Under the pieces are notes generated by a model, which worked only from the letters and a program-made list of their open reading frames with translations, searched no databases and was not told the DNA's origin. This document shows, piece after piece, positions 56,074-61,207 of a stretch of 64,000 nt of DNA. A program made the translations under genes and the position numbers. How positions within the stretch are numbered: position 1 is the stretch's first letter; each line of letters begins with the position of its first letter. The stretch is from Amycolatopsis sp. 195334CR (lineage in GTDB: Bacteria; Actinomycetota; Actinomycetes; Mycobacteriales; Pseudonocardiaceae), in assembly GCF_017309385.1 (NCBI RefSeq), contig NZ_JAFJMJ010000001.1:124001-188000 (forward strand). Direction: 5' to 3'.

Positions 56074-57069
56074 GTGAGTTCACTGTCTGAAGTGCCCCTG
56101 TCCGTGCTCGACCTGGCGCCGATCGTCAGCGGGTCGGACGCGCGGGCCGCGCTGGAGAGCAGCGTCGAGCTGGCCAAGTACACCGAGCGCCTCGGTTACC
56201 ACCGCTACTGGGTGGCCGAGCACCACAACATGCCGGGCATCGCCAGCTCCGCCACCTCGGTGCTGATGAGCCACATCGCCACCGCCACCGAGCGCATCCG
56301 CGTCGGTTCCGGCGGCATCATGCTGCCCAACCACGCGCCGCTGGTGATCGCCGAGCAGTTCGGCATGCTGGAGGCCTTCCACCCGGGCCGCATCGACCTC
56401 GGCATCGGCCGCGCGCCGGGCACCGACCAGCGCACCGCGCTCGCCCTGCGCGGCGCCGCCGGGCTGTCCGCCGACGACTTCCCGCAGAAGCTCCAGGAAC
56501 TGCGCACCTACTTCGAACCGGGTGAGGGGCGGGCGGTGCGCGCGTTCCCCGCCGAGGGGTTCAAGGTGCCGGTGTGGCTGCTCGGGTCGAGCGGGTTCAG
56601 CGCCCAGCTCGCCGGCGCGCTCGGCCTGCCGTTCAGCTTCGCGCACCACTTCAGCGCGCAGAACACGATCCCGGCCGTCCGGCTGTACCGCGAGGCGTTC
56701 CAGCCGTCCGAGGTGCTCGACGAGCCGTACGTGATGCTCGGGGTTTCCGTGCTGGCCGCGGACACCGACGAGCACGCGCGCTACCTGGCCGGGCCGAGCG
56801 CGCTGACCTTCCTCAGCCTCCGCCGCGGCAGGCCGATCCCGTTGCCCACGCCGGAGGAAGCGGCCGCCTACCCGTACACCGACGTGGACACCATGTTCGT
56901 CGAGGAACGGCTCGGCACCACCGTGCTCGGCTCGCCGGAGACCGTGCGCAAGGGCTTGGAGCAGCTGCTCGAGGACACCGACGCGGACGAGCTGATGATC
57001 ACCACCATGGTCCACGGCGAGGAGGACCGGAAGCGCTCCTACGAGCTGGTCACTTCAGTGCGAGGCTGA
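56074..57069 (+). CDS. LLM-class flavin-dependent oxidoreductase
   Basis: A 331-residue bacterial luciferase-like monooxygenase of the short MsnO8/YhbW type: [33 protein letters not shown] and [20 protein letters not shown] are characteristic. FMNH2 or F420 may be the cofactor; the sequence does not decide. GTG start. Its 3' end overlaps the RCC1 gene tail-to-tail by 20 bp. Confidence 0.87.
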
Positions 57070-58033
57070 ACCGGTCGGCGGCGGCGATCGAGAACACGCC
57101 CGACGCCGCCGTCGCGGGGACCGCGATCGCGCTGCTGTTGCTCCAGCCCCAGGCGATCACCTTGCCGGTGGACAGCAGCGCGACGCTGTGCGTCCAGCCC
57201 GCCGCGATCGCCTTCACCCCGACCGCGGTGGCCGGCACGTCGGTCTGCTTGTACTCGTTGTTGCCCCAGGCGACGATCGTGCCATCGGCCTTGAGCGCCA
57301 GGCTGTGCTCCCAGCCCGCGGAGATCGCGGTGACCCCGGACTTCGCCGCGGCGGGCACGTCGATCTGGCCCCATTCGTTGCCGCCCCAGGCGATCACGCC
57401 GCCGTTCTTCAGCGCGAGGTTGTGGTCGCCGCCCACGGAAATCGCGCTCACCCCGGACTTCGCCTCGGCAGGCACGTCGTCGCGCAGGCCCCAGCTGACC
57501 ACCTGCCCGCCCTGCTTCAACGCGAGGCTGTGGAAACCGTAGGCGGAGATGGCGGTGACCCCGGACTTGGCGGCGTCGGGCACTTTCAGCTGCCCGAACC
57601 AGTCGTTGCCCCAGGCGACGACACCGCCGTTCTTGAGCGCGAGGCTGTGGCCCCACCCGGCGGCGAGCGCGGTGGCGCCCTGCGCCTCGGCGGGGACGAC
57701 CGTCTGCCCGTAGGTGTTGTTGCCCCAGGCGACCACGGTGCCGTCGCCCTTGAGCGCGAGCGCGTGCACGCCGCCGACGCGCACTTCGGCCACGCCGGCG
57801 GTCAACCCGGCGGGCACCGGCCGCTGCTGCCAGATCCCGTTGCCCCAGGCGATCACCCCGCCGGTGCCGTCCGCGGCCGCGGCTGCCTCCACCGGCGCTG
57901 CTTCGGCGGACGGGGTGGCCGTGGCCGGCGGCGGCGCGGTGGGCCCCGGCTCCACCGACACCGCGGTCAGCGCACCGGCCAGCAGCAGCCCCGCTCCCAG
58001 CGCGCCCACCACGAGCGAAGCCGATTTCCGCAT
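57050..58033 (-). CDS. Secreted RCC1-repeat protein
   Basis: A 327-residue exported protein. A signal peptide or membrane anchor (residues 1-25) is followed by a short Pro/Ala-rich spacer and seven RCC1-like repeats of about 35-48 residues, each with a VIAWGNNxxGQ-type core and a GxxHSLALK end. Seven repeats fit a closed seven-bladed beta-propeller. Such actinobacterial proteins are surface or secreted and of unknown function; protein binding is likely. Confidence 0.85.
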
Positions 58034-58445: not shown

Positions 58446-59078
58446 ATGTCACGACGATTCGGCAGACTCTTCGCCGGTATGGCGACCACCAGCATGGTTC
58501 TCGGCCTCACCATGGCCGGAGCCGGTACCGCGCTGGCCGCGGACCAGGCGTACACCACCACCAGCACGCTGTCCTACACCTGCAACTACCCGCTGATCGG
58601 TGAAGCACCGCTCACCGTCACGGCCACCTTCCAGGGTCCGGACTCGATCACCGGTGGCGGTACCTTCCAGGCCCACACCGTGACCGCGGTGGCCACCGTG
58701 CCCGCCGACGTGGTGGGCGCCCTGTACTTCCTCGGCGGCATCGACGGTGTCCGCGGCACCGCCGACGCCAGCGTCGCCGTTTCGGGCGGGACCCCGTCCA
58801 CGGTCAACGTGAGCGACCTCGGGGTGGCGGAGCAGTTCGTCGCCGACCCGAACGCGGACTTCCCGGTCAACGCGGCCCAGACCTCGAGCACGGTGGTGCC
58901 CGCCATCACCGCGGCGTCCTCGGGGACCCTGACCGCGTCGCTCGGCGCGACCTTCTCCGCGTCGCTGGACTTCCACTACCTCAACGCCACCCCCGAGTGG
59001 CAGGGCCCGGAAGCCTTCGACTGCACGCTCGACGGCGGCCAGACCCCGGCCTTCTCGCCGTCCCTGCCGATCACCTGA
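58446..59078 (+). CDS. Secreted protein A (DUF6801-like)
   Basis: A 210-residue exported protein with a clear signal peptide (residues 1-32, ending ALAA). The mature domain starts LSYTCNYPLIGEAPLTVTATF and matches what I recall of the DUF6801 group of actinobacterial secreted proteins. It is beta-rich with only two cysteines, Cys46 and Cys193, near the ends of the domain and probably bonded. The ATG has a GAGGAG site. The next gene carries a related domain at its N-terminus. Function unknown. Confidence 0.75.
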   Translation: MSRRFGRLFAGMATTSMVLGLTMAGAGTALAADQAYTTTSTLSYTCNYPLIGEAPLTVTATFQGPDSITGGGTFQAHTVTAVATVPADVVGALYFLGGIDGVRGTADASVAVSGGTPSTVNVSDLGVAEQFVADPNADFPVNAAQTSSTVVPAITAASSGTLTASLGATFSASLDFHYLNATPEWQGPEAFDCTLDGGQTPAFSPSLPIT

Positions 59079-59168
59079 TTCGAGTAGTAGATTCCCCCGG
59101 TGCTCCGGCCACGTCCCCGACACGTGGCCGGAGTTTCCGGCATTTCTGGCTCTGGCGAAGGAACGCGG

Positions 59169-60515
59169 ATGGCACAGAAAAAACTCCGGGACAAGCTCGG
59201 CACCACGGCGGCCGTCGCGCTGCTCGCCGCCGGACTGACCAGCGGGCTGACCGGAGCGGGGTCCGCCGCGCCCGAGGCACCCGAAGCGCCGGCGGAGAGC
59301 GTTCCGGTCTCGCTGGCGCTGACCTACGACTGCACCTTCGGCGAGAGCGAGCCGCAGGCGGTCGGCCTCACCCTCAACACCACCCTGCCCAGCTCGGTGC
59401 TGGTCGGGGAACCGGTGGCCGCGGGACCGCTCGACGCGGAACTGGTCCTGCCCGACACGCTGTGGCCCGCGCTCGGCGCGCCCGCGTCGATCCAGGGCAC
59501 GGTCACCACGAACCTGCTCGGCGTGCAGGACGCGAAACCGGAGGCGGTGTCCGCGGAGCTGCCGGTGCCGTCCACCCCGGTGCCGCCGGAGGCCGCGCTG
59601 ATCGTGAAGACCGCGGGCACCGTCCCGGCGTGGCAGACCAGCGCGGCGGGTTCGCTGACCGTTTCCGTCGGGCCGCCGTCGATCGTGCTGACCACCCAGC
59701 CTGCCGAAGGCGCGATGGGCACCGAGGTGGTCGTCGAATCGGTCTGTGAACCGGCGCCCGAGCAGGATCCGCTGCTGGGCTCGGTGGCGGTCCTGCTGCC
59801 CGGTGAGCCGGTGCCGCCGCCGGGCACCACTCCCCTGCCGGGGCTGCCCGGACCGGACGGTGTGGTGCCGGGCCTGCCGTCCGCGCCCGGTGCGCAGGCC
59901 GCGGAGGCCGGTCCCGGCGCACTCGCCGCCGCGCCACCGGTTTTCCCGCTCACCGCGCAGTACATCAACGGCGAGTCCACGGTGAAGAAGACCGGGGCGA
60001 AGGTCGTGCTCGGCCCGGGGTTGATGGTCAACGGCGGTTCGTACCTCAACCCGGCGGGCATTCGCGGGGACGTGGCGCTGCCGAAGGCGAAGACCCCGTT
60101 CTACGCGTTCGGCTTCCTGCCGGTGACCGGGCTGGCGGAGTTCCTGCCCGCCAACGACCCCAACGGCAAGCTGACCTTCACCGAGGGCACTTACCCGAAG
60201 CCGGACAGCATGCTGTTCGCGCACACCGAGGTGTTCCTGCGGATCAGCGACGTGGAGATCAACGGGCTGTCGTACGACGTGGGCCCGGACTGCCGCAGCG
60301 ACAAGATCTCGCTGGACCTGTGGGGGCAGTACCTGGTGACCAGCGGTGGCACCATCGGCACCCACCCGGACGCGCCGCTGGAGTCGCAGCGGTCGTTCAC
60401 CATCCCGCCGTTCAGCGGGTGCGGGGTGTTCGAGGACATCTCCCCGATCGTCACCGGCCTGGTGTCGGGTCCGGGCAACCAGGTCACCCTGGTGCTCAAG
60501 ACGGTCGGCAAGTAG
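59169..60515 (+). CDS. Secreted protein B (fusion of A-type and C-type domains)
   Basis: A 448-residue exported protein with a signal peptide (residues 1-33). Its first domain (about 45-195) resembles protein A: LALTYDCTFGES at the start and a second Cys at 193, the same spacing as in A. A Pro/Gly-rich linker (about 200-258) leads to a second domain (about 262-448) clearly homologous to protein C: GESTVKKTGAKVVLGPG, FYAFGFLPVTG and LVSGPGNQVTLVL, with Cys375 and Cys418 matching Cys145 and Cys181 of C. A terminator follows the stop. Function unknown. Confidence 0.75.
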   Translation: MAQKKLRDKLGTTAAVALLAAGLTSGLTGAGSAAPEAPEAPAESVPVSLALTYDCTFGESEPQAVGLTLNTTLPSSVLVGEPVAAGPLDAELVLPDTLWPALGAPASIQGTVTTNLLGVQDAKPEAVSAELPVPSTPVPPEAALIVKTAGTVPAWQTSAAGSLTVSVGPPSIVLTTQPAEGAMGTEVVVESVCEPAPEQDPLLGSVAVLLPGEPVPPPGTTPLPGLPGPDGVVPGLPSAPGAQAAEAGPGALAAAPPVFPLTAQYINGESTVKKTGAKVVLGPGLMVNGGSYLNPAGIRGDVALPKAKTPFYAFGFLPVTGLAEFLPANDPNGKLTFTEGTYPKPDSMLFAHTEVFLRISDVEINGLSYDVGPDCRSDKISLDLWGQYLVTSGGTIGTHPDAPLESQRSFTIPPFSGCGVFEDISPIVTGLVSGPGNQVTLVLKTVGK

Positions 60516-60516
60516 G

Positions 60517-60559
60517 AAAAAGGCCCGCCACCCCGGTTTCCCGGGTGGCGGGCCTTTTT
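60517..60559. terminator. Bidirectional intrinsic terminator
   Basis: A 17-bp stem (60517-60533 with 60543-60559) that is GC-rich inside and ends in five A on one side and five T on the other. It lies immediately after the stop of gene B and before the stop of the convergent gene C, so it serves both. Confidence 0.92.
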
Positions 60560-60574
60560 GTGCGCGAGGTTTCT

Positions 60575-61207
60575 TTACGGCAGCGAGGAGGCCTTGCCGA
60601 GCACCAGCTTGATCGTGTTGTCCGGCCCGGAGACGAGCGAGCTGAGCAACGGGGCGAAAATGGTGCAGTTCTTGAATTCCGGAATGGTGTAGGTGCCGGA
60701 GACGGTGCCGCCGTTGAAAATGGTGAAGTCACCCTCGGACTTGAGGTCCATGCCGACCGGGGTCTGCGTCTTGCACTCGTTCCCGACCGGGGTGTAGAAG
60801 ATGCCGCCGACCCAGATGTCGCTGAGCTGGATGTAGGCGTCGGCGTGGGTGGTGATCACGCCCTGCTTGATCTCGCCGGAGACCGGGCCGGTCGGGATGA
60901 CGGTGACCGTGGCCTTGACCGGGATGAAACCGAAGACCTGGAAGGAGGCCTTGGCCGGCGGGATGCTGAGCACACCGGAGACGTCGCCGCCGCCGGGCTT
61001 GGTGGTGACGGTGGTGTCCAGGGTGCCGGGGCCGAGCGGGAGCGGGCTGCCGGTCTTCTTCACCACCGACTCGCCGGAGACCGGGTACCGGACCTTGAGC
61101 GTGGCCGCGGACGCGGGCCCGGCGGCCAGCACCCCGGCGCTGAAAACAGCCGCCGCCATCGCCATCACCGCGGCCGGTCTGCGGAACCTGGACAACATTC
61201 TGGACAT
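60575..61207 (-). CDS. Secreted protein C
   Basis: A 210-residue exported protein with a signal peptide (residues 1-35, ending ASA). The mature domain has GESVVKKTGSPLPLGPGT, FQVFGFIPVKATVTVIP, YIQLSDIWVGGIFY and LVSGPDNTIKLVLG, and two cysteines (145, 181). It is homologous to the second half of the convergent gene B. The ATG at 61207 has a GAGGA site. No catalytic residues are evident; a surface or cell-wall binding role is conceivable. Confidence 0.75.
   Translation of the reverse strand: MSRMLSRFRRPAAVMAMAAAVFSAGVLAAGPASAATLKVRYPVSGESVVKKTGSPLPLGPGTLDTTVTTKPGGGDVSGVLSIPPAKASFQVFGFIPVKATVTVIPTGPVSGEIKQGVITTHADAYIQLSDIWVGGIFYTPVGNECKTQTPVGMDLKSEGDFTIFNGGTVSGTYTIPEFKNCTIFAPLLSSLVSGPDNTIKLVLGKASSLP

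Follow-up and report, generated by a model that had tools for sequence, protein, structure and literature searches.

Secreted-type proteins with a DUF6801 module and a second, unnamed module are linked to a subset of Mce operons in Amycolatopsis and its relatives

The trio locus

The window, i.e. the whole stretch of 64,000 nucleotides of Amycolatopsis sp. 195334CR that was analyzed, holds three neighbouring genes for secreted-type proteins, hereafter A, B, and C. Protein A (58446-59078, plus strand) has 210 residues, with a signal-like N terminus and one DUF6801 module containing Cys46 and Cys193. Its gene is followed head to tail, after 90 bases, by that of protein B (59169-60515, plus strand), whose 448 residues comprise a signal-like N terminus, a DUF6801 module (residues 52-204; 59322-59780, plus strand), a Pro/Gly linker, and a C-type module (residues 261-443; 59949-60497, plus strand). 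Protein C (60575-61207, minus strand), convergent with B, has again 210 residues, with a signal-like N terminus and an unnamed module containing Cys145 and Cys181. These features, read from the sequence, confirm what a preliminary description of this DNA had reported, namely that A and C are secreted-type proteins of equal length with one Cys pair each and that B joins an A-like domain (Cys55/Cys193) and a C-like domain (Cys375/Cys418) through the linker. The same description saw no enzyme motifs, in agreement with our Pfam and NCBIfam scans.

The N termini of all three proteins look, by eye, like signal peptides, with a basic segment, then a hydrophobic one, and an Ala-rich end. Inspection by eye revealed neither a membrane segment beyond this start nor an anchor motif in A, B, or C. 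Between B and C lies a hairpin with A/T-run flanks (60517-60559, no strand assigned; -39 kcal/mol, z -5.4), which looks like a shared bidirectional terminator; it was not reported by the consensus promoter/terminator scan, which otherwise added nothing. A secreted-type RCC1-repeat protein is encoded on the minus strand at 57050-58033 and is a conserved neighbour of the trio. Regarding a mobile origin, no relative of C was confirmed in viral contigs, and B had no match in the plasmid collection.

Two module families, single and fused

Residues 43-203 of A match PF20611 (DUF6801), a family listed with its function unassigned, with 114 bits (E 9e-33), and residues 52-204 of B match it with 58 bits (E 1.7e-15), for a family cut-off of 26 bits. 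A plain BLASTP comparison of A with B gave no significant match (best E 0.12), so that the kinship of the two proteins rests on the profile. The C-terminal half of B is 31% identical to C over 190 aligned positions (E 3e-23). Hence, the two similarities on which the idea of a modular fusion depended, one at each end of B, are both present. A family search with C, listed to E 10, did not bring up DUF6801, and when 32 aligned members of the C module were searched, the best E was 0.043 in Pfam and 0.042 in NCBIfam, with no family matching more than 2 of the 32. The C module is thus a separate family from DUF6801, without a name in Pfam-A or NCBIfam. In sets thinned to <75% identity, both Cys columns of the A module are Cys in all 42 rows, and each of the two Cys columns of the C module is Cys in 32 of 34.

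We surveyed domain architectures with profiles built locally from the matches. The modules occur as A, C, tandem C genes, A-A, A-C, and A-A-C, with the A module N-terminal to the C module in every surveyed reading frame that has the two. Three long, secreted-type proteins place 4-6 FN3 repeats (identified by Pfam) between an A-A pair and C (L075 6891-10259, L106 4649-7543, and L107 5095-8502), and one in L105 has Thr/Glu/Pro repeats between A and C. A tree was built from 106 C modules. Of its 50 standalone labels, 40 fall in one weakly supported group (86/76), which also includes representatives of other families in the class (L115, L116); some of the standalone labels belong to fused genes truncated where a short locus ends (e.g. 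L011_2917 and L012_2825). The B protein of the window belongs to a 30-row group (97/86) together with fusions found at the head of mce operons (L117, L076, L077, L079, L089, and L128). The view that two exported-type modules exist both singly and fused therefore holds well beyond this locus, and the arrangement is widespread and apparently long-standing. Since standalone and fused C modules are mostly in separate groups and the A-C order is constant, we do not favour an origin of B by recent local fusion of the neighbouring A and C genes.

Distribution of the modules

The source genome encodes four DUF6801 modules and two C modules, the latter both at the trio locus. In our genus set of 80 Amycolatopsis genomes, which counts the source genome, each module is present in 72; these are the same 72 genomes, and the other eight have neither, in line with the co-occurrence that the preliminary description had proposed to look for, a result partly trivial given the fusions. 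Co-occurrence statistics are partly built in, as fused proteins hold both modules, and the genomes are not independent; read in this light, they give a Fisher p of 3e-11 in the genus, p 8e-35 across 200 genomes of the family (87 with both modules, 14 with only DUF6801, 5 with only C, and 94 with neither), and p 4e-9 across 396 genomes of the phylum (respectively 5, 3, 1, and 387, where two of the three DUF6801-only genomes score below the family cut-off). Conservation and co-occurrence together rule out chance or artefact as the source of the trio pattern.

Linkage to mce operons

The genome of the window has an mce operon just outside it, 7.7 kb from C, with two MlaE permeases and four Mce proteins (Pfam). 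By a crude gene call it begins 4.7 kb beyond the window end (position 68675 on the numbering of the window), and it is transcribed in the opposite direction to C, the two pointing away from each other. An rRNA operon (5S, 23S, and 16S; L125 2493-7612, partly past the window end) lies between the neighbours of the trio and this mce operon, whereas in the genomes G032 and G004 the gap between C and yrbE is only about 0.6 kb.

In a distant locus, L116, an A-C fusion is followed by an ATPase gene whose product we take to be MceG/Mkl-like. In a local search, this ATPase recurred at 66-82% identity in L115, L117, L121, L076, L077, L079, and L122, while matches at 30-35% in other loci were taken as different ABC ATPases. 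In L117, L116, L077, L079, and L076, the gene right upstream of mceG encodes an A-C fusion and shares its strand; mceG is followed by yrbE genes in L117 and L121 and by an Mce gene in L117.

We then mapped PF02405 (MlaE/YrbE) matches and C modules across 32 chosen genomes. At least 62 of the 96 C modules, spread over 26 of the 32 genomes, have a yrbE gene within 10 kb among the matches listed, for about 0.9 expected, and at least 32 have one within 3 kb; G000, G054, G003, and G027 are close relatives and represent nearly one event in this count. The distances are upper bounds, as they refer to the yrbE genes among the matches listed and most second-permease rows were omitted, and dropping the second piece of a G325 protein reduced the C matches from 97 to 96. 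Excluding the eight genomes already known for a nearby mceG, at least 34 of 62 C matches, in 18 of 24 genomes, are within 10 kb of yrbE. The gap between C and yrbE is 0.55-0.64 kb in G032, G004, and G483. The linkage recurs at unlike loci, is not confined to one genus or family, and can involve different mce operons of a single genome (e.g. G004 and G032).

The association is not complete. Among the matches listed, 34 of the 96 C matches are not close to yrbE, and 6 of the 32 genomes have no yrbE within 10 kb of C. The genomes G489, G494, G507, G502, and G505 have modules and mce genes, with the listed yrbE not close to C (in G502 and G505 on separate contigs), and G386 has both modules, yet no MlaE match. 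Conversely, mce operons also occur without the modules, as all eight genus members lacking them have MlaE matches. Repeated encoding beside yrbE/mce genes, as would be expected of accessory proteins of Mce operons, is observed here, and the link of the trio modules to Mce is well supported. We found no description of it in the open-licence literature searched, as far as the texts were accessible; the name DUF6801 did not occur in that literature, and the accessible part of PMC6678751 does not mention Amycolatopsis.

To see which permeases accompany the modules, we placed in one tree 20 module-linked and 20 unlinked YrbE proteins, hand-chosen among the matches listed, with 16 from the eight genus members lacking modules (one per operon). 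Rows were picked by position and not by sequence, and second permeases and two partial G018 pieces were omitted. The 20 linked rows require one label change, for a mean of 16.4 in shuffled labels, and none of 500 shuffles was as low. The 20 module-linked operons thus separate from the 36 unlinked ones, although the dividing branch is poorly supported (38/0) and bootstraps require one to two changes. Of the 16 rows from module-less genomes, 15 fall inside a 33-row unlinked clade and the last has a very long branch. The clade also leaves out two unlinked rows, from G032 and G004. The eight module-less genomes thus own mce operons, none of which groups with the linked ones.

Structural models

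The models of A and C were built from 5-sequence alignments (pLDDT 86 and pTM 0.78 for A; pLDDT 80 and pTM 0.71 for C). The A model is an all-beta, Ig-like sandwich, for which one domain of 3LSO matched well above all other rows. 3LSO, a putative membrane-anchored protein of Corynebacterium diphtheriae, thus appears to resemble A in one domain; it was not retrieved by sequence search, where nothing in the PDB was significant (the lowest E, 0.022, was obtained for MpAFP_RII with the A profile). The domain is called Ig-like in a figure legend of PMC10034466, a paper accessible in part, and the accessible text of PMC1810536 reports no mce genes in the four Corynebacterium genomes examined there.

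The C model resembles closed 8-stranded beta barrels, outer-membrane and soluble alike, including YceI, and a Foldseek search with it gave no match below E 1e-3. Identities to the OmpW, OmpX, PsbO, HtaA, and YceI barrels are 5-12% in the corresponding rows. Such likeness in a predicted structure marks the fold class, which unrelated families share, and not kinship. Amycolatopsis is not known to have a mycolate outer membrane. For a secreted-type protein where no such membrane is present, the model suggests that C may be a soluble, perhaps ligand-holding barrel. The heme-binding domain of HtaA has a conserved His/Tyr heme ligand. The only invariant columns of the C module are C145, C181, and N197, with no invariant His or Tyr, and we do not favour HtaA-like heme uptake.

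A putative role in lipid import and its alternatives

The main new result is a likely functional tie of A, B, and C to a subset of Mce importers. Our best explanation, to which we give about an even chance of being right, is that the three assist a subset of the Mce (YrbE/Mce/MceG) lipid importers as accessory proteins outside the cytoplasm, as the mce neighbourhood points to transport rather than generic surface assembly. A shared neighbourhood can, however, also mirror co-regulation instead of contact. In such a scheme, A, B, and C would first be exported and form their Cys pairs. The Ig-like A module might then dock onto the Mce needle or the cell wall, while the barrel-like C module would capture a hydrophobic substrate outside the membrane and pass it on to the tunnel of the Mce complex. 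On their own, A and C could be diffusible or exchangeable counterparts of the halves joined in B, and the FN3 repeats or Thr/Pro-rich linkers of some relatives may tune the reach between these halves. The modules may bind lipids, we infer, and a more specific reading, which we put forward tentatively and with less confidence, would have them serve this Mce subset as lipid carriers or receptors, in a layer outside the cell dedicated to substrate capture, in bacteria without a mycolate outer membrane.

Proteins accessory to actinobacterial Mce importers are known, such as the Mas proteins (PMC1810536) and LucB (PMC9882608). LucB is a small transmembrane protein that binds Mce1C (PMC9882608), in contrast to A, B, and C, where we see no membrane segment by eye. 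The same paper, on the structure of Mce1, leaves open in its accessible text whether "additional unknown factors" feed the tunnel. According to Casali & Riley 2007 (PMC1810536), mce operons of Streptomyces and Amycolatopsis have an ATPase gene upstream, and the accessible part of their paper does not mention a secreted A/C-like pair. A two-module, secreted-type family that tracks particular YrbE lineages offers candidates for such outside factors in tractable actinomycetes. It also provides a first functional lead for DUF6801 and defines the C module as an unnamed family.

A role resembling that of LucB or Mas, in which the proteins partner Mce without binding a substrate, as structural collars, wall anchors, or needle assembly factors, would entail an identical Mce linkage and an identical split of YrbE lineages. 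The variable spacers between A and C (FN3 or Thr/Pro-rich) fit a spanning or anchoring function. We nonetheless regard this as unlikely, if a serious contender: a pure scaffold would less readily account for diffusible forms with a single module and for C models resembling a barrel, although both arguments are of limited strength.

Explanations that dispense with Mce seem improbable. The trio genes may share conserved chromosomal regions with mce operons and yet serve another end, for instance together with the RCC1 protein (inhibitor- or lectin-like). The RCC1 gene is indeed found within 5 kb of C in at least 63 of 71 genomes, and the 6 of 32 genomes without a close yrbE among the matches listed fit this account, but plain synteny fails to explain why the linkage recurs across loci, genera, families, and, in G004 and G032, mce operons. 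Quite improbable, too, is a surface assembly or adhesin formed by A and C (and B) with no relation to transport; the preliminary description had suggested that A and C may assemble on the surface. Secreted-type modules, Cys pairs, an Ig-like A fold, and FN3 spacers would suit it; however, it predicts neither the mce neighbourhood nor the split of YrbE lineages, and the three proteins show no anchor motif by eye.

Other genes near the modules

All ten trio loci examined (L068-L074, L081, L082, and L085) hold a secreted-type RCC1-repeat gene, with a changed gene order in some, and the count given above refers to the best C match in the 71 genus genomes for which one is listed; the 72nd module-bearing genome, G022, has no C match among the matches listed. 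The RCC1 gene is far from C in G001 and was not found in G011, G028, and G037, and its state could not be judged among the matches listed in G006, G040, G058, and G066. The RCC1 protein is a possible fourth component of the trio system.

Two more secreted-type genes lie near the A-C fusion and mceG in each of two loci (L117 2678-4628; L121 3612-4646 and 6290-7138), and the secreted-type gene at L117 2738-3766 has no Pfam match. The genome G293, which has no DUF6801 match, carries C-type modules close to an mce operon (locus L115). Finally, in the source genome (C4, locus L066), a lone DUF6801 gene is near a gene for a luciferase-like monooxygenase that is 50% related to its counterpart at 56074-57069 of the window.
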